Virus record (IMG/VR): IMGVR_UViG_3300049222_000187
Coordinates: 1 to 38,095 of that record
Length of the DNA: 38,095 nucleotides
Direction: 5' to 3' (one strand)
Source of the DNA: a virus
Part shown: positions 1 to 37,948 of the stretch, in pieces
Position numbering within the stretch: position 1 is the stretch's first letter
Layout: each line of letters opens with the position of its first letter
Notes under the pieces: generated by a model
Databases searched by the model: none
What the model was told of the DNA's origin: nothing
Seen by the model: only the letters and a program-made list of their open reading frames with translations
Program-made: the position numbers and the translations under genes

Positions 1-123
1 GTCTTCTTTATTATATAAAGAATTATCTATATCTAATCTATTAGATTCTTTCTCTTTATCTTTATCCTCTTCTTCTACTTTAAGAGGTTGGAATCTAGGA
101 TCGTCTAGGCTAATCTTAGCCAT
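1..123 (-). CDS. Unknown protein, N-terminal 41 residues only (runs off the left edge)
   Basis: The ATG is at 123 and the frame stays open to base 1, so only the first 41 codons are visible. They start MAKISLDDPRFQPL and then become very acidic and charged, with runs of Glu, Asp and Lys. It begins 3 nt after the stop of the preceding gene, as the next member of the block of putative ejection or tail proteins. Position alone suggests a large internal virion protein, but nothing visible identifies the family. Confidence 0.6.
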   Translation of the reverse strand, partial: MAKISLDDPRFQPLKVEEEDKDKEKESNRLDIDNSLYNKED

Positions 124-126
124 ATA

Positions 127-978
127 CTACCTCTCTTCTGCTTCGTATGTTAACGGATCTAGTCTGTATGTATTACCTTGATTATCAAGTATTAAAAAGT
201 CTGCAGTTTGTGGATCATAGAATATATCTCCTGGTTGTCCTGTAGGCTCTGCTCTTACAATATTTCCACCTGTACCATATCCATAGTTTACAAAACCTTT
301 GAATTTAGATTGTATTTCTGGAGATGCGTTTACTTGAAATCTAACAAGTTTGCTAGCAGTTAAATTAGGATTTTGTGCTACAAGTAAGTTATCACTTTCT
401 GCAAATGTTTCAGTTAAATCTAATACTCTTGTTTCTGGTGAAGGGATAACACCTTTTTTAGCAGGATCTGCATCAGGGTTATCTATTTTAAATTGTAGTT
501 CAGCTATTTTGTTTTTACCTTCTTGTATTTTAACATCTATCCTAGCTTGTCTATCTGCATCACCTTCTGCAGCTTTAAAATCTCTATCTAATTGAGCAAT
601 TTCTGCTTGTTTAGCTGATTTCTCTCGCTCTAAATCTGCACCAATGTCTGCTTCAACACCTGCAAGTGCTACTTCTCTATCAACATCTTGTTTTGCTTGT
701 CTTGCTTTGAAAAAATCTGCTGTTGGATCTTCAAACGCTTTGGCTAAATTACCTAATGTACTACCACCGCCTGTTTCTGAAAAACCTCTTAGTCCACCTT
801 GAATTAATAATTGTGCTAATGGATCAAATGCAGGTTTATTGAATTTTTCTAAAGCTTTATTTATTCTTTCAGATGGACTAGGTGTCCCCTCTTCAAAATT
901 ACTTCTGATACCGGTCATGATACCACCACCGACTTCGCCGCCTTTTCTAAACATAGGTCTTTTAAATACTTTGCTCAT
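127..978 (-). CDS. Putative virion protein, function unknown
   Basis: 283 residues. The N-terminus is basic and Gly-rich (FRKGGEVGGGIMTGIRSNFEEGTPSPSERI). A long charged helical, probably coiled-coil stretch follows at about residues 85-165 (many Glu, Lys, Ala, Gln). The C-terminal 80 residues look like a compact beta domain (GFVNYGYG, DIFYDPQTADFLILDNQGNTYRL). It lies 2 nt from the neighbouring Gln-rich protein in what appears to be one transcription unit. This place, after tail genes and before the left-edge gene, fits a tail or ejected internal protein. I do not recognise a named family; the structural role is inference from context. Confidence 0.7.
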   Translation of the reverse strand: MSKVFKRPMFRKGGEVGGGIMTGIRSNFEEGTPSPSERINKALEKFNKPAFDPLAQLLIQGGLRGFSETGGGSTLGNLAKAFEDPTADFFKARQAKQDVDREVALAGVEADIGADLEREKSAKQAEIAQLDRDFKAAEGDADRQARIDVKIQEGKNKIAELQFKIDNPDADPAKKGVIPSPETRVLDLTETFAESDNLLVAQNPNLTASKLVRFQVNASPEIQSKFKGFVNYGYGTGGNIVRAEPTGQPGDIFYDPQTADFLILDNQGNTYRLDPLTYEAEER

Positions 979-980
979 TA

Positions 981-1799
981 TTAATTAGGTCCGAAGTTAC
1001 TAAACCCTTTGTATAGTCCAGCAAGTGTAGCACCTGTACTTAATGCAGTTTGTAATGGACTAGGTGTAGGTGATATTGTTTGTTGAATTTGTCCTGGGTA
1101 TCCTGATATTAGACCCATGATGCCTGATCCAAGAGTCTGTGCAGCTTGGAGAGGTTGTTGTGCTTGTGCTTGTAATAGTTGTTGTTGAGCTGATAAACCT
1201 GCTTGAGTTTGAGCCTGTTGTAATCCACCCAATGTAGATAATCCCGCAATTTGTGCACTCGCTAAAGCTGGAGAAGCTTGCGCTAAATTCATTTGTTGGC
1301 CAAAAGCTTGACCTGCTAATTGTTGTGCTTGTTGAAATCCTTGTTGCTGTAACTGTGCTTGTAAACTTGCTCTGTTTCTATCAGATGCTGATTGATACTC
1401 TGCTCTTTGTACACCTTCTCTACCACCACCAAAAGCACCTGCTGCAATTGCAGCCGCTGGAACACCTTGTGCACCTTTCTGAGCTTGTATATCAAAGTCT
1501 GCCATTGTAGTGTCAATAACATCTTGTTGATAGGGAGACATAAATTGTTTATATGCATTTGGTCCAGATAAACCTGCAGCAGTTTGTAAGTAAGGTGCAT
1601 ATGAACCTAGTCCACCTGCTTGCGCAATTGCTTGTTGTTGTAGTGGAGAAAGTCCAGCAACAAACTGTGAACCCATAATTTTTGATAAATCTTGTCCTTT
1701 AAAATCACCTACTGCTTGTTGTAACTCTGTAATATACGGTTTAGCTGCCGCTTCTATAAACTCAGGTGGTTGATTTATTTGTGTAACAGTATCAGCCAT
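981..1799 (-). CDS. Gln/Ala-rich putative tail or internal virion protein
   Basis: 272 residues. The segment from about residue 105 (SPYQQDVIDTTMADFD) through GAFGGGREGVQRAEYQ resembles a protein type common in podoviruses and environmental phages, next to tail genes. From about residue 135 to 220 it is extremely rich in Gln and Ala, predicting a long helix or coiled coil. The C-terminus is more hydrophobic (LGSGIMGLISGYPGQI). Its ATG overlaps the upstream stop as TAATG, implying translational coupling. A DNA-ejection or tail-tube role is plausible but inferred only from composition and position. Confidence 0.75.
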   Translation of the reverse strand: MADTVTQINQPPEFIEAAAKPYITELQQAVGDFKGQDLSKIMGSQFVAGLSPLQQQAIAQAGGLGSYAPYLQTAAGLSGPNAYKQFMSPYQQDVIDTTMADFDIQAQKGAQGVPAAAIAAGAFGGGREGVQRAEYQSASDRNRASLQAQLQQQGFQQAQQLAGQAFGQQMNLAQASPALASAQIAGLSTLGGLQQAQTQAGLSAQQQLLQAQAQQPLQAAQTLGSGIMGLISGYPGQIQQTISPTPSPLQTALSTGATLAGLYKGFSNFGPN

Positions 1800-2650
1800 T
1801 ATACTAGTCCTCCGTTTTCTAATTTTTTCATCATGTCATACATACGTTGTGCACCTTTGTTGACATCTCCGTCACCCATTCCTCTTACAGCATCTGCTGT
1901 AAATACAAATTCGTTGTTTGATAACATTGCAGGTATGTCATCTTCTTTTTCTTTTACACCAACTGGAGGAATAAATCCACCAGTATCTCTAAGATCCAAT
2001 TCTGTTACTCCTGCAGGGTTTTGATTTAATGGAAGATTCATGATGCCTGAAGCCTGAATCGCGTTCTCTTCTGGATTATCAGGTCCCATTGCAAAGCCCA
2101 TTCTACCACCATAAGCAGCACGTGCTCTATACATATCTTGATTATATTCAGCTAAATCAGCTTCTACTAATCCCGCTATTTCTTCTTCTGGGTATTGTAG
2201 TTCTCTGTACGCTTTTTCCAATCTTGTTCTAAGTGCTGCAACATTTCTTTCACCGCCTGTAGAATCTTCTTGTTCACGGCCAGCTAATACTCCGCCAAGC
2301 ACAGTTCCATAACCACCTACTTTTAACATATTACTTAACATTGCATCTTTACCTGGTTTTAAACCAAAAAAACCACTACCTATATTTTGTAAACCTGTTT
2401 TAGAAAATATTCCAGGTAAGTTACCCATAACCGCAGAGGGAGCATAAGTACCTAGTTTAAATAAACTACCTAAACCACCGCCACCAGCTAAAGAACCTAA
2501 TCCTGCTGTTCCTGCATATAAAAGAGCTGCTTTACCTAAATCAGACTTAGCAAATTTTTTAACACCTTTAGCTACACCTTTAACAGCTTTTTTTACAAAA
2601 CTGCCTAAGCCATACATTTGTCTTGGTTGTTGCATACGTGATATTGTCAT
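1799..2650 (-). CDS. Putative ejection or tail protein with cationic amphipathic N-terminus
   Basis: 283 residues. Residues about 15-40 form a Lys-rich amphipathic helix (GSFVKKAVKGVAKGVKKFAK), followed by a Gly/Ala/Leu-rich hydrophobic part to about residue 75. The middle is charged and helical. The last 60 residues carry a motif I have seen in many environmental phage proteins: DIPAMLSNNEFVFTADAVRG, then a Met/Lys-rich helix. No good Shine-Dalgarno precedes the ATG; the leader is almost pure A/T, so an internal ATG (Met6) is an alternative start. The membrane-active N-terminus next to tail genes suggests an ejected protein, an inference. Confidence 0.72.
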   Translation of the reverse strand: MTISRMQQPRQMYGLGSFVKKAVKGVAKGVKKFAKSDLGKAALLYAGTAGLGSLAGGGGLGSLFKLGTYAPSAVMGNLPGIFSKTGLQNIGSGFFGLKPGKDAMLSNMLKVGGYGTVLGGVLAGREQEDSTGGERNVAALRTRLEKAYRELQYPEEEIAGLVEADLAEYNQDMYRARAAYGGRMGFAMGPDNPEENAIQASGIMNLPLNQNPAGVTELDLRDTGGFIPPVGVKEKEDDIPAMLSNNEFVFTADAVRGMGDGDVNKGAQRMYDMMKKLENGGLV

Positions 2651-2706
2651 ATATTATATATTTAAACTAGTTTAGGGCAGGTATATAAACCTGTAAATGC
2701 TATACT

Positions 2707-3597
2707 TTATTTGATTTTTTTGTCAACGTCAACACGTTTTAAAGCTTCTAATTGATCGTAAAATCTACCACAATATTGATGCTCTCCTACATGTGTAATG
2801 TAGTCCAATGCATAGATATATACTTTACCTCCCATATCTGTCCACCTTTGACAGAAACCAAAGTCTTCACCAAAGTACCGCTTAGTCTCTACATCATGTA
2901 AAGTATCAAATAAATTATAAAAATTTTCTTTTGCTGTTTCTTTACCATTTACTATAGTGGGTTGATATATTTTTAATTCTGAATGATGTTCTATCATTTT
3001 TTCTATAACTTTTCTTTTAATTAACATACATCCAGTAGGAGCATGACTAACTTCTATAATACCGTGATCTATATTAATATTGTCCTTATTATCCATTTTT
3101 AATGGAAAAGAATAACCCGCTCTTAATAAATCATCTTTTGTTTTTATTAAATCTGTTTGATGTAGTTTTGCCCACATTCTATCTGTGTCAATCATTTTCA
3201 TTGGATAAGGACATGCAATTATATCTTTATCAGCACCTATCATTTTAAATATTGTATTTGCTTCAAAATCTATATCTGAATCAATAAACAATAAATAATC
3301 ATAATTATCAGAATGATTAAGAAATTCTGCTACACATAAATTTCTACCCTGAGTAACTAAAGATGATTTTAATAAACTAAAACTAACCAATATACCTTGT
3401 TTCATACATTCCATTTGAAATTTTAAAACTGCTTGTGCATAATGCATAGACACATCACTATGACACGGAGTACAAACCATTATTTTAGCTTTTGGTTGTT
3501 GGCCTATGTTTATTTCAATTGTTTCAGATTCTACTTTTCCCTCTTTAATTGTTTGATAAGTATCTTCGTTAAACCAAATGGGTTTATTGTTTTGCAT
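2707..3597 (-). CDS. GT-A type glycosyltransferase (family 2-like)
   Basis: 296 residues. After an N-terminal strand (AKIMVCTPCHSDVSMHYAQA, about 37-56), the hallmark is YLLFIDSDIDF at about 101-111. It contains the D-x-D metal and nucleotide-sugar binding motif (Asp106-Ser-Asp108) of GT-A enzymes. A later CGRF/GEDFGFC segment is also typical. It likely transfers a sugar from a nucleotide donor in the cytoplasm; the acceptor is unknown and could be a virion protein, DNA or host surface precursor. A good ribosome site (AAAAGGAG) precedes the ATG. It overlaps the next glycosyltransferase gene by 14 nt, so the two probably act together. Confidence 0.82.
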   Translation of the reverse strand: MQNNKPIWFNEDTYQTIKEGKVESETIEINIGQQPKAKIMVCTPCHSDVSMHYAQAVLKFQMECMKQGILVSFSLLKSSLVTQGRNLCVAEFLNHSDNYDYLLFIDSDIDFEANTIFKMIGADKDIIACPYPMKMIDTDRMWAKLHQTDLIKTKDDLLRAGYSFPLKMDNKDNINIDHGIIEVSHAPTGCMLIKRKVIEKMIEHHSELKIYQPTIVNGKETAKENFYNLFDTLHDVETKRYFGEDFGFCQRWTDMGGKVYIYALDYITHVGEHQYCGRFYDQLEALKRVDVDKKIK

Positions 3598-4525
3598 TAA
3601 TTGCTCCTTTTAAAAATCGGTTCCAGGTATTTCCTTTTATTTTCCAGTCATAAAAATAATTAACAAAATCTTTTTGCATTTTTAAATGTTTTATTATATT
3701 TGGATCTTGTAGGGATAACGCAGCCATTTCAATACTACCTGCAAATTTTTCAGCTAAACTTCTATAATTATTAGAATAAGGAACATACATTGGAAACTCA
3801 GCACCTGTTTCATATAAGGCTCCATAATTAGTTGTCACACAATATAATCCGGCAGCCATAGCTTCTAGTAGAGAAATACAAGATGTTTCTTCCCAAATAC
3901 TAGGGTACACAAACAATCTATAATTTTTTAAATTTTCTTTAATATATTCGTTTGATTTATATCCAATGTAATTAACGTTTGGTAATTTTTTAGCTTGATT
4001 ATATAAGTCATGGTAGTGATGATCATTATGATCATAAAATGCTTTACCGTATACTTCACAAGAAGAATAAACATCTAAACTAATTAATGGATTTTTAACT
4101 AATTGCATTGCACCTAATAAAACAGATAAACCTCTCCATGGAGTACAGTGGTGTATAATTTTTACAGGTTCTCCTTTTTTATAAATAGTTGGAATAGGTT
4201 CAATATTTTCTATACCATTTTTTATAACTAAACATTTTTCTGTGGGCAATTCAAATTTTTTAATAAATTGTTCAAAGTTCCAATTAGAGTTAAATACATA
4301 CCAATCATATTTATTATGATTTGATTTATCTTGAAACCAGTTAATTAAATTTCCTTGATCCCAAGAATTTTTTTGCCATAAAATATTTATTTTATTTAAG
4401 CTAGGGGGTATTTTTTCTGGAACTGATGTGCAAATTTGAACTTGATCTAATAACTTTGGATCAACATGTTTTATTAAATATTCAAATTGTAATTCTGTTC
4501 CGCCTCTAGGACTTTGATTTGTCAT
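3584..4525 (-). CDS. GT-B glycosyltransferase, family 4-like
   Basis: 313 residues. The C-terminal half has the GT4 signature: RLFVYPSIWEETSCISLLEAMAAG at about 203-226, containing the E-x7-E pair Glu213 and Glu221 that binds the nucleotide sugar. Strands such as VKIIHHCTPWRGLSVLL match the second Rossmann domain. It is shorter than typical GT4 enzymes (about 350-400), mostly at the N-terminus, and starts abruptly at MTNQSPRGGTELQFEYL, yet still has the GGTE donor-loop element. It lies between two overlapping genes (20 nt and 14 nt), an accessory insertion within tail genes. The acceptor cannot be inferred. Confidence 0.85.
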   Translation of the reverse strand: MTNQSPRGGTELQFEYLIKHVDPKLLDQVQICTSVPEKIPPSLNKINILWQKNSWDQGNLINWFQDKSNHNKYDWYVFNSNWNFEQFIKKFELPTEKCLVIKNGIENIEPIPTIYKKGEPVKIIHHCTPWRGLSVLLGAMQLVKNPLISLDVYSSCEVYGKAFYDHNDHHYHDLYNQAKKLPNVNYIGYKSNEYIKENLKNYRLFVYPSIWEETSCISLLEAMAAGLYCVTTNYGALYETGAEFPMYVPYSNNYRSLAEKFAGSIEMAALSLQDPNIIKHLKMQKDFVNYFYDWKIKGNTWNRFLKGAINAKQ

Positions 4526-4739
4526 TATTTTGATTCATAACTTTCTGTAAAACATTTAATCCTTTTGGTGATACTTGAACAGTAAGATCTTGAGCAATAT
4601 GCTCTGCTACTGTTTCAGTGTTTGGATCAGCTATATCAGCTTCTTTCTCTGCTTCGTCTTTATATATTTTATTTGTTCTAGTATTTCTTATTACTACTGT
4701 TGTAGTACAATGTATTTTTAATAAGTCTTCGTTTGCCAT
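4506..4739 (-). CDS. Small conserved-looking unknown protein
   Basis: 77 residues: beta-rich start (LLKIHCTTTVVIRNTRTNKIYKDEAE), an acidic middle, and a helical end (VSPKGLNVLQKVMNQ). It overlaps both neighbours: TAATG with the gene upstream and 20 nt with the glycosyltransferase downstream. The overlaps and sensible composition argue that it is a real gene. It sits with small structural genes, so a minor virion role is possible; no family is recognised. Confidence 0.65.
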   Translation of the reverse strand: MANEDLLKIHCTTTVVIRNTRTNKIYKDEAEKEADIADPNTETVAEHIAQDLTVQVSPKGLNVLQKVMNQNNDKSKS

Positions 4740-5074
4740 TAACCGTTCTCCTGTGATCTGTCTATTAAAGCATAACTTACAACACCTGTTATTTCATTTG
4801 CTGTGTCCGCTTTCATTTTTATAACATCTCCTGCTTCTAAATTCAAGGTATTTACAATCATATTTGTCATACTTTTATTAAGCTGTGCATGGCCTATTTC
4901 TACATCACTTCCACCAGATTTTTTTAAATATAAATCAGCATCTACATTTGATGCATCCATATGACTAGCTTGTACAGTTTTTACAATTGCTACTGCAGAA
5001 GTTGATATTGTTAGCACTGTGGTTAAATTAGTATCTGTTAAATCAAATACTGCGCTTTTATATTGTATTGTCAT
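4739..5074 (-). CDS. Small beta-rich structural protein
   Basis: 111 residues, almost entirely alternating hydrophobic and polar residues with Thr, Ser and Val. This is typical of a beta-sandwich head or tail accessory protein (AVFDLTDTNLTTVLTISTSAVAIVKTV, then DADLYLKKSGG and a C-terminal GVVSYALIDRS). Its start overlaps the upstream stop as ATGA. Two other genes in this window (20232-20501 and 20501-20791) have a similar size and fold type. Probably a virion decoration or tail-attached subunit; the exact role is unknown. Confidence 0.65.
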   Translation of the reverse strand: MTIQYKSAVFDLTDTNLTTVLTISTSAVAIVKTVQASHMDASNVDADLYLKKSGGSDVEIGHAQLNKSMTNMIVNTLNLEAGDVIKMKADTANEITGVVSYALIDRSQENG

Positions 5075-5235
5075 GATAAAAAGTAATTATACGTATCTTG
5101 CTCTTCTTTCAAGTCATTTTGAAATGAAAAATTAAGTTGATTTTTTACAGTATCTAATGCTTCTATAATTTGTCTTTGATTACTAACTTCGTATTCTTGT
5201 TTTGGTTCCGGTATATATGCTGCTATCTTTGCCAT
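5071..5235 (-). CDS. 54-residue unknown protein coupled to tail gene
   Basis: The reading frame can be extended upstream to 5286, but the ATG at 5235 overlaps the stop of the long tail gene as TAATG, the commonest arrangement in this window. I therefore take it as the start. The protein begins MAKIAAYIPEPKQEYEV and continues as a charged helix (RQIIEALDTVKNQLNFSFQNDLKEEQ). It ends in ATGA overlap with the next gene. The pattern, a short strand then a helix of about 30 residues, recalls small virion proteins, but function is unknown. Confidence 0.6.
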   Translation of the reverse strand: MAKIAAYIPEPKQEYEVSNQRQIIEALDTVKNQLNFSFQNDLKEEQDTYNYFLS

Positions 5236-7418
5236 TATCTTCTTCCGTCTGGTTTTATGTCTACCCTTAATGTTCCATAACGCCAAGTTTCACCTACAGC
5301 GTTATTTTCTATTTTAATTGCAAGTAGTCTTCCTCTAGCTCTAGTGTCTACTTTATCAGTAGATGATGTTATTGTAAAAGGTCCTAGCGGTGAGCTTGAT
5401 GCTGTATCACTTGGATAGTTGTTCAATAATAATGTTACTTTTGAATTACCTGTTAATACTTTAAAGTCTGGTATAAATCGTTTCATAGACATAATAAACT
5501 CACCATCACCTCTTAAATCAGCAAGACCGGTTGTTCCTCCTAAAGCACTTCGTCTAGCAGATATATCAAAATCACCTGATTGAATATAGGCATCAATTGA
5601 TGTTGTACCAGAACTATTTACTTGATCAGTTCCTATTTCATGTTCGTAATAAGTTGTTGCTCCATAAGTTGCTGTAACTCCTTGTATTGGAAAAGTAGGT
5701 AAACCAGTTTTATTATATTCAGTTGCATATGGTAAATCATATACACCAGTGTCAATGTAAGATGTTCTTGCTAGTGAAGAAGTAGTCCAAACGTTTTCTG
5801 CGTAGTTATATACTACACATCTATTAATTTGTTGTGAGTCAGAGGTTGGATAAAACCAACTAATTTCATTATATAAACTATTGTGTTCTGCATATACTAA
5901 CATACTAGAGTTGTAGTTAATACCTAGATTATCTCCATTTGTTGTAAAAACAAAATCTTCAACTAAACAAGGGATGGCTTTTACCGTACCATCAAACATA
6001 AAAAATCCACCCTCACCTGACATCCAAAATACAATACCATCAGAATAACTAAGTGCGTTTTGACCAATCAATCCACAGTTTGTACCTACTTGTCTAATAC
6101 TAAATGTAAATGGTGGACCAACATATTGAATTACATATGCCGAAGTATCTGTTAAAACCAAAGTATAATCTTTACCAGATACTGCTCCTATAATTTCATT
6201 ACCTTTATCTAATCTAAATGTTCCTGCTGTATTAATTGCTGTTGGAGTATAACTATTAAAGTTTTCTTGATCACTAAATCTAATAAACATTGGGTCTTGT
6301 GAAGTAGTGTCTCCAATAGTTGTTTCAGTCCCAAAATGAAATACATGTCTATCTCTATCAGATACTTGAGTTAATCTTGTTTTAGTAGGTGCATTTGCCA
6401 TAATAGTTGCTCTAACGTTTCTAGCTGACGCAGCACCGGCATTCCACGTAAACGTTTCTCCATTGTGAATAGTAGCAATTAATATTTGTCCAAAATTATC
6501 TAACGACCATAAACCTGGATCTAATGTTATAGTAGATGATATTGCAGATTGTCCCCAACCTATATAGTATTCAACAGAAGCACCATTGGAGTGAGCAGAT
6601 CTAGTTCCAGCTACAGCTCTTGTAATACCCGTTAAATCATTTCCAGATATTCCAGTATACGAAATATATTCTGCTCCTACTTTTATACTTCCAGTCGTTG
6701 GAAAATTAGCCGTTGAAGTTAAAGTAATACTTGTACCTGATCCTCCAGTACCAGCAGTGTCATCATTCAAAGCACCATTTAATGTTGTTGTAAGACCGGA
6801 AGCTCCTCCCCAGGCAGCCGTACTCCAACCAAGTCCAACTGTTTGAAATGTTGGTCCTACATTTATATATGGATCAATTTGTGCAGAACCGGTTCCCGAT
6901 GTACTTCCAGCTGAATTGGATGGCATAGTAATTTGAAAAGTGTTCGCAGCTTGATTTAATACTTCAAAACTATTATTAGTAAAATCAGTTGTTGCATAAC
7001 CAGAACCTGTTGGAACAGTAACTGATGAAAATGTTACATATCTTCCGTTTTGTAAACCATGCGATGTTTTGTTAACTGTTACTGTTGGAGATCCAGAAGT
7101 TGCACTAAAGGTTGCTCCAGTAATTACGTCATTATCTATTGGAGTAATATCAAAAAACTCACCTTCATAATATAAAAACAAACCCTGAGATGTACCTAAG
7201 GCTACATATCTGTCACCAGTAAGACTGGTAAAGGCATGTTGAGCACGTGCTACTCCAGGTAATGTAGTATTAGAATTTGTAAGTTGTGACCATCCACCTA
7301 TTTTTTCTGGAAGTCCATATCTAAATCTGACAAAGTCTCCATCAACCCATTGAGATTCAGCACCTGAATCTGTGACTTGTTTATTAAAACCAGGTTTAAA
7401 ATTAAGTTTTTGTAGCAT
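5235..7418 (-). CDS. Large tail or head-closure protein, P22 gp10-like
   Basis: 727 residues. The start (MLQKLNFKPGFNKQVTD...W.DGDFVRFRYGLPEKIGGW) matches the N-terminus of phage DNA-stabilising or tail-hub proteins of the P22 gp10 type and their marine relatives. The rest is beta-rich with propeller-like repeats (FHFGTETT, DYTLVLTDTSAYVIQY, GIVFWMSGEGGFFMFDG). Residues about 105-180 hold an inserted beta domain (TVTVNKTSHGLQNGRYVTF...NTFQITMPSNSA) also visible in the 164-residue protein at 19014-19508. No convincing Shine-Dalgarno precedes the ATG; a 16-bp perfect palindrome (ATTAAAATATTTTAAT, 7420-7435) lies there instead. Role: part of the connector or tail closing the head after packaging. 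Confidence 0.75.
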   Translation of the reverse strand: MLQKLNFKPGFNKQVTDSGAESQWVDGDFVRFRYGLPEKIGGWSQLTNSNTTLPGVARAQHAFTSLTGDRYVALGTSQGLFLYYEGEFFDITPIDNDVITGATFSATSGSPTVTVNKTSHGLQNGRYVTFSSVTVPTGSGYATTDFTNNSFEVLNQAANTFQITMPSNSAGSTSGTGSAQIDPYINVGPTFQTVGLGWSTAAWGGASGLTTTLNGALNDDTAGTGGSGTSITLTSTANFPTTGSIKVGAEYISYTGISGNDLTGITRAVAGTRSAHSNGASVEYYIGWGQSAISSTITLDPGLWSLDNFGQILIATIHNGETFTWNAGAASARNVRATIMANAPTKTRLTQVSDRDRHVFHFGTETTIGDTTSQDPMFIRFSDQENFNSYTPTAINTAGTFRLDKGNEIIGAVSGKDYTLVLTDTSAYVIQYVGPPFTFSIRQVGTNCGLIGQNALSYSDGIVFWMSGEGGFFMFDGTVKAIPCLVEDFVFTTNGDNLGINYNSSMLVYAEHNSLYNEISWFYPTSDSQQINRCVVYNYAENVWTTSSLARTSYIDTGVYDLPYATEYNKTGLPTFPIQGVTATYGATTYYEHEIGTDQVNSSGTTSIDAYIQSGDFDISARRSALGGTTGLADLRGDGEFIMSMKRFIPDFKVLTGNSKVTLLLNNYPSDTASSSPLGPFTITSSTDKVDTRARGRLLAIKIENNAVGETWRYGTLRVDIKPDGRR

Positions 7419-35778: not shown

Positions 35779-35843
35779 TATTTATCTCCTACTAATCTTA
35801 ATATAATTAATACTATTACTGTTGCGATAAAAAAATACTCCAT
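35778..35843 (-). CDS. 21-residue membrane micropeptide
   Basis: ATG at 35843 overlaps the stop of the 62-residue gene as TAATG and its own stop overlaps the next ATG as TAATG. The peptide begins MEYFFIATVIVLIILRLVG: an acidic start, about 15 hydrophobic residues and a positively charged end, the classic look of a single transmembrane helix with positive-inside tail. AGGT before the ATG is a modest ribosome site. Confidence 0.52.
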   Translation of the reverse strand: MEYFFIATVIVLIILRLVGDK

Positions 35844-36031
35844 TAGTACCTCACTTTCCAACTGCCACTTGCAGTTCTATATCCTTTTTTATCTAAATCA
35901 AAATAAGTGATCAATGCAGTTCCAACTTTACTAGTCCAATATCTGCACTTGTCATCAAACTTACCAAATCTAGTTACTTCCTCGCCATTGGCTTTTGTGA
36001 ATGTTATTCTAAATGTTTTATCTTTTATCAT
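35843..36031 (-). CDS. 62-residue unknown early protein
   Basis: Sequence IKDKTFRITFTKANGEEVTRFGKFDDKCRYWTSKVGTALITYFDLDKKGYRTASGSWKVRY alternates hydrophobic and polar residues and has several aromatic residues, suggesting a small SH3- or OB-like beta barrel with basic surface. It is the first gene of the micropeptide operon, with its own TTGACA promoter and AACAGAAAG leader. Function unknown; nucleic-acid binding is possible from the fold guess only. Confidence 0.68.
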   Translation of the reverse strand: MIKDKTFRITFTKANGEEVTRFGKFDDKCRYWTSKVGTALITYFDLDKKGYRTASGSWKVRY

Positions 36032-36085: not shown

Positions 36086-37054
36086 TTAATTTAGACTTTC
36101 TTCGTATTTTTTTCTAGCCAATATCTTCGCCTCTCTTGATTGATGTTTGTTCTTCATACCTTTAATCATACTAGCCAAGTTGCTTGGATTATAGATAGTC
36201 AAACCTGTTGAGTTAGTTCTAATCAACTCTGCCTCATCAACTTGTATTCCAAGTTCTGTTGCAAGTTCAATACCCTCTGAAAGATATCTATATGCTTTCA
36301 ATCCAATCTTTAACTGATCGCATTGTTTTTGAATTGTATCAATCCATGTTTGGTGTTTAGATACAACATTACCTTTTGCAATTCGCCAATCATTAAAAGT
36401 TTCATACTCGTCTTTAGTACATGCGATTGCTCTTGATCTGCAATAAGATGTTCCAATGACATCAAGATAGTATTGGTCATTAAAAGTTTTAGTCATGCCT
36501 GTATTATTATCACTACTAGAATAACTATTACCACTATATCCAAGTGCTTTCATACAAGCCTCAACATGTTTAGTCTTATGTGGGTTGTCCTTGTTCTCGG
36601 ATTGTTGAGCATAGATATCTGGGTTGCAATCCATAGCTTTTAGTTCTTCTCTAAAATATGCAACTGCAAATTTCTTTCCCTCCTCATCACTATACTCACT
36701 ACCATTTAGATTACCAAACAAACCAAAATCAAAGTGTGATTTAGTTTCTTTAATATCCCCCTCATCATCTTTGTCCTCACTATGTGCAAAGTAAAAACAT
36801 TTATCTTTTGCAACAACATCACAAGGTTGACCATATTTCTTTTTGAAAGAACGCAACACAGAAACATCTTCTGGTGGATATGATCTTTCAACAACTTGCT
36901 TTGCAAGTTTGTGTGCTATGTCATAATGATAATCAACACTCTCTCTTGCTGACAAGAAATCTTCTCGTTCTTGAGTGTCCTCGTTTTCAAAGACATTTTT
37001 TATTTTATTAAAGAGTTTGTTTCGCAACTCTGTATTCATTCTTATTTTTGTCAT
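36086..37054 (-). CDS. 322-residue unknown early protein
   Basis: Charged, mostly helical N-terminal half (TELRNKLFNKIKNVFENEDTQEREDFLSARESVDYHYDIAHKLAKQVVERSY), then a Cys- and Tyr-containing middle (QPCDVVAKDKCFYFAHSEDKDDEGD, TSYCRSRAIACTKDEYETFNDWRI) and a helical C-terminus (YLSEGIELATELGIQVDEAELIRTN). The last part (NSTGLTIYNPSNLASMIKGMKNKHQSREAKILARKK) is basic. Six or so Cys could bind metal, but the spacing fits no motif I know. First minus-strand gene left of the divergent control region; leader has AACAGAAAGG. Confidence 0.68.
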   Translation of the reverse strand: MTKIRMNTELRNKLFNKIKNVFENEDTQEREDFLSARESVDYHYDIAHKLAKQVVERSYPPEDVSVLRSFKKKYGQPCDVVAKDKCFYFAHSEDKDDEGDIKETKSHFDFGLFGNLNGSEYSDEEGKKFAVAYFREELKAMDCNPDIYAQQSENKDNPHKTKHVEACMKALGYSGNSYSSSDNNTGMTKTFNDQYYLDVIGTSYCRSRAIACTKDEYETFNDWRIAKGNVVSKHQTWIDTIQKQCDQLKIGLKAYRYLSEGIELATELGIQVDEAELIRTNSTGLTIYNPSNLASMIKGMKNKHQSREAKILARKKYEESLN

Positions 37055-37059
37055 AATGA

Positions 37060-37117
37060 CCTTTCTGTTAATTAATTTTTATTTTTTTGTTTTACTACTT
37101 GACAATAGGATTGTCAA
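37060..37117 (-). promoter_or_regulatory. Early leader and possible promoter of the 322-residue gene
   Basis: AACAGAAAGG (37069-37060) lies five nt before the ATG at 37054. Upstream, TTGACA (37117-37112), 17 nt and TAAAAC (37094-37089) form a weaker promoter. Its -35 is one half of the dyad TTGACAA-N5-TTGTCAA (37099-37117), whose other half is the -35 of the plus-strand promoter, so the two directions may compete or share a repressor. Confidence 0.5.
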
Positions 37118-37127
37118 GGATTATATA
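37099..37127 (+). promoter_or_regulatory. Sigma70-like promoter leading into the structured RNA
   Basis: TTGACA (37099-37104), exactly 17 nt, TATATA (37122-37127). Predicted start near 37134. Unlike the four early gene promoters it is not followed by AACAGAAAGG or any ribosome site, which fits a non-coding transcript. Confidence 0.65.
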
Positions 37128-37133
37128 TTAATT

Positions 37134-37589
37134 ACTCTAAACAAGTAGAGATCATTAGCACTCTGGAAGATAGCCATTGGGTGCTACTGATCCCTGATCC
37201 AATGGAGAGTAAGTTCAGCTATGCTTTAGAACTGGTAAATTGGATCTGGGATCAGTCATTATTGACTGTGGAAATAAACACTATAACAAGGGTATTACGC
37301 CAGGATATCTGTATGTCATGCAATGGGAGGCGTCATGACTACCCTCGTAGCATAGTGACTGATCATTATTTGCTGGACCAAGCTTATGGATGCATCCATA
37401 TAGACCCACGCGATTTATGGGTTTGCTTGGTCCTGCTAATAATGATGTATGACCTAGAGAAGGCGTCCAAATCTGCCCCTGGCATTTCCCTGTACGTAAG
37501 CAGTGACCGCAAGGTAGCAACGAAGTACTAGGACCAGTAGCGCCAAGCTTCCCTGATCAGGATGGCGCGCTGGTATATGATTGAAGGAT
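37134..37589 (+). ncRNA. Candidate large structured non-coding RNA (new or unidentified class)
   Basis: About 450 nt without a credible gene, clearly richer in G+C than its surroundings. Perfect or near-perfect helices seen: TAGCAC/GTGCTA (37156-37161, 37181-37186); an 18-nt arm pair with one mismatch (37186-37203, 37239-37256); GATCAGTCA/TGACTGATC (37250-37258, 37356-37364) enclosing AGGGT-ACGCC/GGCGT-ACCCT (37289-37301, 37329-37345); the junction GGACCAAGC/GCTTGGTCC (37375-37383, 37425-37433) holding two hairpins; TGCC/GGCA (37474-37484); CCTAG/CTAGG (37453-37457, 37528-37532); ACC-GCAA-GGT with a GNRA loop (37506-37515); and ACCAG..GCGCC/GGCGC.CTGGT (37533-37574). Strand is set by the promoter at 37099. 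It is not recognisably tmRNA, RNase P or 6S. GOLLD, ROOL and IMES classes need checking. The exact 3' end is unknown. Confidence 0.6.
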
Positions 37590-37617
37590 CAAGCGGCAAG
37601 CTCCAAGCAGCAAGCGC
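37590..37617. repeat. Four tandem heptads CAAGCNN
   Basis: CAAGCGG, CAAGCTC, CAAGCAG, CAAGCGC follow each other without a gap (37590-37617). The last overlaps the palindrome CAAGCGCTTG (37611-37620), which runs into the -35 box of the next promoter. The first five bases are constant, the last two variable, like iterons or protein-binding sites. Confidence 0.75.
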
Positions 37618-37665: not shown

Positions 37666-37812
37666 ATGGATCAAGAAATAATAGTAGATGCAATAAAACA
37701 TAACACCGCTCAACAATCTAGAATTGCTGATGCACTGGAGGAGATCCTGAGGCTGGTGAAACTGGACCAGGAGAAGATGGCGAAAAGGTTCCCGGATGAA
37801 GATAAAGAATAA
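37666..37812 (+). CDS. 48-residue helical protein, plus strand
   Basis: Starts MDQEIIVDAIKHNTAQQSRI and continues ADALEEILRLVKLDQEKMAKRF, ending in a charged tail. It is a single amphipathic helix with heptad-like leucine spacing, so a small coiled-coil dimer is likely. Ribosome site GAAAGGA at a good distance; dedicated promoter. I recall very similar short proteins in marine phage sequences but know no function. It is the first plus-strand gene, facing away from the rest of the window. Confidence 0.7.
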   Translation: MDQEIIVDAIKHNTAQQSRIADALEEILRLVKLDQEKMAKRFPDEDKE

Positions 37813-37859: not shown

Positions 37860-37896
37860 GTTACCTGGACCATTGTCAAGAATTTTTTAGTAGCCT

Positions 37897-37938
37897 GAAG
37901 CTCCAAGCAGCAAGCTGCAAGCTTCAAGCGTCAAGCAT
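37897..37938. repeat. Six tandem heptads (C/G)AAGCNN
   Basis: GAAGCTC, CAAGCAG, CAAGCTG, CAAGCTT, CAAGCGT, CAAGCAT in register (37897-37938), then CAAAAAA. The 18 nt AAGCTCCAAGCAGCAAGC at 37898-37915 also occur at 37598-37615, exactly 300 bp away in the same orientation. Confidence 0.78.
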
Positions 37939-37948
37939 CAAAAAACAA

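Follow-up and report, generated by a model that had tools for sequence, protein, structure and literature searches.

The window, meaning the whole stretch of DNA analysed here, comprises 38,095 bases and is a complete virus record of IMG/VR. Its last 1.2 kb can be aligned with Pelagibacter phage HTVC027P at about 76% identity, and the virus is a relative of that Pelagibacter (SAR11) phage. The region of interest lies between a divergent homologue of HTVC027P gp35 on the minus strand and a small homologue of gp34 on the plus strand. HTVC027P has no annotated gene across the RNA, and its gp34 begins after it. The features of the locus are as follows.

36086-37054, minus strand: divergent gene, homologue of HTVC027P gp35, a conserved neighbour of the RNA locus
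37099-37127, plus strand: sigma-70-like promoter of the RNA (TTGACA at 37099-37104, 17 nt, TATATA at 37122-37127)
37133-37147, plus strand: P0, hairpin at the 5' terminus (UACU-CUAAACA-AGUA), located where the transcript is predicted to start
37157-37185, plus strand: P1, a hairpin whose sequence is wholly different in other phages
37186-37256, plus strand: P2, a hairpin (ACUGAUCCC...GGGAUCAGU) with a conserved base and an interchangeable tip
37250-37364, plus strand: core closed by P3 (37250-37258 with 37356-37364), with compensatory changes in L139, L045, L161 and L164
37268-37281, plus strand: P4, a GUG/CAC hairpin with an A-rich loop, 100% of cells paired and hardly any variation
37289-37345, plus strand: P5, a closing helix (37289-37293/37341-37345) enclosing an H-type pseudoknot
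37297-37301/37329-37333 and 37315-37320/37334-37339, plus strand: the pseudoknot helices of P5, with compensated variation
37304-37309, plus strand: P5a, the self-complementary hexamer GAUAUC
37362-37446, plus strand: P6, a long hairpin with a conserved foot (37362-37373/37435-37446) and an interchangeable tip
37454-37574, plus strand: domain matching Rfam RF02976 (Flavobacterium-1), 88.5 bits, E 7.4e-16, cut-off 58.9
37554-37559, plus strand: UGAUCA, self-complementary apical loop of the RF02976 3' hairpin, a proposed symmetric kissing loop
37618-37646, plus strand: promoter of the next gene (TTGACA-17-TAGGAT), 3' of the RNA
37666-37812, plus strand: small homologue of HTVC027P gp34 that has a ribosome site of its own and lies outside the RNA

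Relatives of the gp35 homologue are encoded on 563 IMG/VR stretches, and family searches matched it to no known family. This protein was considered as a partner of the RNA and set aside, having neither a family nor a solved relative and only a poor model (pLDDT 50). Adjoining it, a small protein on the minus strand (35843-36031) scores 26.6 bits against Pfam WYL_2, just under the cut-off of 26.7. On the other side, the published annotation of HTVC027P gp34 is a peptidase C33-associated domain, which was not seen in the homologue in the window, and gp33, the gene after gp34 (L001, 5158-5757), matches Pfam GP88 with an E value of 2.5e-28. Repeats of the CAAGCTCCAAGCAGCAAGC type are found 3' of the RNA at 37583-37616 and 37892-37941; they recur many times in these phages and largely make up the gp32 reading frame of HTVC027P.

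Structure, strand and modularity of the RNA

The region was examined for several properties of a structured RNA. First, the predicted fold of 37134-37589 has an energy of -162.3 kcal/mol, compared with -130.3 +/- 5.1 in dinucleotide shuffles (z of -6.26, 0 of 100 shuffles), and 37134-37450 alone gives a z of -4.76. Secondly, the G+C content of the region is 0.454, whereas the adjacent gene has 0.337 and the window as a whole 0.345. Third, a 116-aa GTG reading frame (37181-37531) is open in just 17 of the 121 homologous cores among the matches listed, and a protein-coding gene was rejected because this frame is unconserved. Lastly, a TTGACA-like promoter with a spacing of 16 to 18 nt is found upstream of 100 of the 112 homologous cores; a simple promoter scanner overlooks the one in the window because it demands a T at the final -10 position. 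The first-pass annotation had described a large structured RNA with no plausible gene, higher in G+C than its flanks and driven by its own promoter (TTGACA-17-TATATA) in a divergent phage control region, and each of these points agrees with our results. An inverted repeat, TTGACAAT-AGG-ATTGTCAA, lies over the -35 of the RNA promoter (37098-37118), has a variant form in relatives and is a possible operator.

The strand of the functional molecule was assessed from 115 distinct P2 hairpins, all of them hairpins with a core downstream. Read on the plus strand of the window, their helices contain 51 G-U pairs and a single A-C mismatch. This asymmetry shows that the functional molecule is the plus-strand RNA, in agreement with the promoter. 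The noncoding RNA itself is almost certainly real.

No Rfam family matched the 5' two-thirds of the element (37133-37450); the best weak hit, SNORA79 (E 0.4), was attributed to chance. A profile and pattern search recovered at least 121 distinct versions of the core in at least 182 phage loci, some of these loci being two stretches of a single contig. Two core strands are conserved, GGGAUCAGUCAUUAUUGACUGUGGARAUAAACACUAUAACA and CGUAGCAUAGUGACUGAUCA, with P5 in between. P3 is near-invariant and its rare changes are compensated; here the helix proposed earlier between 37250-37258 and 37356-37364 proved exact. P0 is also kept paired in relatives that have CACU...AGUG. For P3, P4 and P5 together, 97.7% of cells are paired and 44 cells carry double changes, a result obtained in 0 of 500 shuffles. 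P5 differs in sequence among phages and is alike in plan, and its first pair is C-G in 38, A-U in 16, U-A in 11 and G-C in 3. The earlier pairing of 37289-37301 with 37329-37345 identified the right region, which is here refined to a closing helix plus two pseudoknotted helices. In the P5 class of the window, pseudoknot stem 1 occurs as ACGCC/GGCGU, AGGCC/GGCCU and UCGCU/AGCGA, and stem 2 as GUCAUG/CAUGAC, GUAUAG/CUAUAC and GUUGAC/GUCAAC. A generic pseudoknot count, which is a weak test alone, gave 99% compared with 79% in shuffles. In a tree-based test, run with a home-made null on a composite alignment from which the variable interiors had been excised, the four strongest covarying pairs were all predicted ones, two of them clearly beyond the null and two near-significant. 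The search for covariation in homologues that had been recommended at the outset revealed compensatory changes in both parts of the RNA, including the pseudoknot.

P2 and P3 share seven nucleotides (37250-37256) and their pairings compete, so no single fixed secondary structure holds both in full. Two other local pairings were tried and rejected. An alternative core helix, CACUAU/AUAGUG, is broken in L164 or L161 on inspection, and a local hairpin, AGUCA/UGACU (37254-37267), is backed by L139 only, its pairing being disrupted in L161 and L164.

The RNA is modular: P1, P2 and P6 keep conserved feet or places, and their tips are swapped between stems and between phages while the core stays constant. 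For example, 78 phage pairs have cores at least 95% identical, and in 76 of these the P2 tips have no 10-mer in common. Tips also move between positions, as 70 P2-P6 pairs have 15-mers or longer in common, and L022 carries the P6 tip of the window at P2. Arrays of P2 modules are seen both with a core and in its absence (L063, L074, L080), and cores occur without P1 and P2 (L038, L045).

Other modules were noted in these phages. The P1 modules of L023, L027, L055 and L097 have a common motif, CGTCACACCGC...GCCGTCTTCG, around inner helices that differ; it may be an RNA internal-loop motif that recurs. Another module, GGGACTTGCACCTACAAAAGCAAGTAGGATTA, occurs at the 5' end of the array in L063, L070, L074 and L127, and could form an H-type pseudoknot (CTTGC/GCAAG, CCTA/TAGG). 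A long perfect hairpin, TTTAGAATGATT-CTAAA-AATCATTCTAAA, recurs 3' of the RNA in L028, L060, L092, L143 and others as a further exchangeable module.

The RF02976 domain and its palindromic loops

The 3' domain matched the RF02976 covariance model over its full length (model positions 1-121) and above the gathering score. In this domain 99.3% of cells are paired, and both-side changes occur in 8 of 14 pairs (0 of 500 shuffles). The element had been called undescribed, and an Rfam search had been suggested. This holds for the 5' domain, a new class for which the search returned no family, and not for the 3' third, which is already catalogued as RF02976.

The name of this family is misleading. 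A 21-base signature of RF02976 retrieved 90 IMG/VR stretches, and the contigs with recognised flanking genes carry HTVC027P-like genes. By comparison, a 20-base signature gave two matches when one genome was searched for each of 84,980 prokaryote species. One of these, in Halobacillus (L169), extends over merely 26 nt and is due to chance. The sole true genome match (L168; KB911123.1, 1-6564) is a 6.6-kb scaffold of Flavobacterium sp. SCGC AAA160-P02, an assembly that is by its SCGC name a single-cell genome. Homologues of gp30-gp35 are encoded on this scaffold, which aligns with HTVC027P across positions 88-6564, with 56% of bases covered at 75% identity. The scaffold is by these features identified as an HTVC027P-like pelagiphage contig, from a phage on or infecting the sorted cell or from contamination. 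The element is present in 1 of 199 genomes of that Flavobacterium's family and absent from the other 198. Since the scaffold is phage-like and nearly all relatives lack the element, the best interpretation of RF02976 is that of a SAR11-phage RNA. The likeliest origin of the Flavobacterium label is a phage contig that formed part of a single-cell assembly. RF02976 was therefore not found to belong to Flavobacterium genomes, a result that concerns the name and not the covariance model.

Whereas the name and the sRNA label in Rfam offer no hint of a phage, RF02976 here makes up the 3' domain within a longer phage RNA and is in addition a 3'-end module of phage operons. Outside this locus nearly all copies lie 10-122 nt past a stop codon on the same strand, and a convergent gene or a terminator usually follows. 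RF02976 is thus a module too, one that sits at the 3' ends of phage operons.

The 3' hairpin of RF02976 is of two types, both with palindromic loops. Among 96 distinct copies, the loop is UGAUCA in 52, UGGCCA in 6, GUGCAC in 24 and GUCGAC in 13, and the one exception (L251) looks degenerate. Within each of the two hairpin types, parsimony gave six loop switches, all from palindrome to palindrome, counted on trees of the 80-nt domain that recombination can distort. In addition, identical 74-nt domains were found with different palindromes. A second palindrome is located in P5a, where a palindrome of at least six bases is found in 47 of the 61 distinct versions of the window's P5 class, compared with 13% in shuffles. 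The hexamer in other phages is GGGAUCCC, AGGAUCCU, GGAGCUCC, GUUAAC, GGGUACCC, GAGAUCUC or GACUAGUC, and P5a is palindromic in this one P5 class only. Because neighbouring bases cannot pair within one chain, the switching of palindromes is indirect evidence that copies pair with each other. RNA-RNA kissing was inferred by the same reasoning for OLE (GGCC/GAUC/AGCU) and GOLLD (GC/CG) (PMC12286853). Palindromes can also have causes at the DNA level, and on balance we lean towards self-association of the RNA.

Proposed mechanism and alternatives

With moderate confidence, we favour the following account of the nature and action of the element. A noncoding RNA of about 440-460 nt would be transcribed during infection on the plus strand, from a promoter of its own. 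The 5' part of this RNA would form a conserved scaffold (P3, the GUG/CAC hairpin and the pseudoknotted P5), its side arms P1, P2 and P6 would carry interchangeable cassette tips, and its 3' part would be RF02976, a mobile module that several phage operons also have as a cap at their 3' ends. The UGAUCA loop of RF02976 and the GAUAUC loop of P5 would each pair with the identical loop in a second copy, giving a dimer or larger assemblies. The RNA would serve as a stable structural molecule in which the scaffold is kept and the tips diversify, the tips probably contacting something under an arms race, either a host factor or competing phages. Sequence comparison establishes the secondary structure, the functional strand, the modularity, the retention of palindromes and the genomic placement; transcription, oligomerisation and stability of the RNA, and the partner of the tips, are inferred. 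A bolder version is more tentative, and we regard it as possible: a new class of self-assembling phage RNA, widespread in SAR11 phages, in which the scaffold oligomerises via palindromic loops and displays exchanged tips as an RNA counterpart of variable receptor-binding display.

Four alternatives were weighed; they are not all mutually exclusive, and the likelihoods attached to them need not add up to one. In the first, RF02976 is a mere mRNA 3'-end stabiliser or processing signal that blocks 3'-5' exonucleases, the 5' part is an unrelated hairpin array and there is no oligomer. Its compact fold would suit such a role, and so would its position, directly following stop codons and preceding convergent genes or terminators. 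However, this explanation leaves unaccounted for the palindromic 3' loops in 95 of 96 copies, with switching only between palindromes, as well as the strongly conserved, pseudoknotted 5' core, and is judged unlikely.

Secondly, the RNA could act in cis as the leader of the gp34-gp33 mRNA (as a riboswitch-like element, an attenuator or an antiterminator), with the competition between P2 and P3 as its switch. GAUCAGU (37250-37256) can indeed pair with either of two conserved partners, 37186-37192 or 37358-37364. No intrinsic terminator was detected 3' of the RNA in the window, so read-through into gp34 is possible. L029 and L041 showed no promoter separating the RNA from the gene that follows; there the RNA appears to continue directly into this gene and would belong to the mRNA leader. 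RNA-seq of HTVC027P also places gp34 and gp33, just downstream, in one expression cluster that is high at 6-9 h post-infection, early to middle (PMC12753301). These published data describe the two genes, and synthesis of the RNA itself early in infection, as the first-pass annotation inferred, is a possibility. However, a second promoter intervenes in 78 of 104 loci and the downstream genes vary, so a constant single gene without an intervening promoter, as a leader would have, was not found; several of the loci without a separating promoter are spurious ORFs within the RNA. Moreover, the core occurs without P2 and hence without the competing pairing (L038, L045), P2 is separate in L080 and L041, and RF02976 elsewhere is a 3'-end element. 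We therefore consider a leader rather improbable.

An antisense or decoy RNA, in which the scaffold presents variable tips as seeds against host or competitor transcripts, is given a similarly low likelihood. It overlaps the preferred account and differs in how the tips act, with no oligomer needed. Unrelated tips on near-identical cores (76 of 78 pairs) are expected if the tips set a fast-changing target, but the tips had no antisense matches to phage genes outside the RNA loci among the best hits inspected and the phage loci sampled. The last alternative, that the hairpins act as DNA, either as mobile inverted repeats (MITE- or REP-like) or as protein-binding palindromes, fits the relocation of cassettes between positions and phages, the P2 arrays and the prominent palindromes, but is very improbable given the G-U to A-C asymmetry in one orientation only, a sign of selection on one strand as RNA, the conserved promoter that would transcribe that plus strand and the covariation of the pseudoknot.

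The element matters in several respects. A large structured RNA is now known from phages that infect the ocean's most abundant bacterium, and a catalogued Rfam family would most likely owe its name to a phage contig. The locus also provides a natural model for the shuffling of hairpin tips upon a fixed scaffold. If the palindromic loops join copies, self-assembly of phage RNA would extend beyond GOLLD and ROOL. A direct test is possible in the cultured pair HTVC027P and HTCC1062, for which strand-specific RNA-seq exists.

Comparison with known RNA systems

Membership of the GOLLD, ROOL or IMES classes had been suggested, and this part of the first-pass annotation was not upheld, as none of their covariance models gave a match, either at Rfam cut-offs or with E<=5. 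GOLLD is likewise a large, structured, noncoding RNA encoded by phages, and its palindrome-switching loop L21a indicates symmetric kissing (PMC12286853). GOLLD acts as a homo-oligomer, a property for which the palindrome-switching loops of the present RNA are an indirect hint. It differs in that the RNA of the window is about half the length of GOLLD and has interchangeable tips. In addition, GOLLD is often (not always) near phage tRNA genes, whereas ARAGORN found no tRNA or tmRNA (0 genes) in the 38-kb window. ROOL is similar as a large ornate RNA of phages and prophages with pseudoknots and kissing loops (PMC12286853), but has another sequence and architecture. The IMES RNAs, known from marine metagenomes, have a marine origin and structure in common with this element, although no IMES family in Rfam 15 matches. 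OLE, which is not known as a phage RNA, gave no covariance-model match either. Its loop L9.3 alternates between GGCC, GAUC and AGCU (PMC12286853), much as UGAUCA alternates with UGGCCA here. RF02976 also has GUGCAC among its loops. The HIV-1 dimerisation initiation site has two natural self-complementary loop variants for RNA dimerisation, one of them GUGCAC; the logic is alike, and the RNA is unrelated. The best reading of these comparisons is that the element would be a phage noncoding RNA in its own right, which associates with itself and works like GOLLD and ROOL but is a member of neither.
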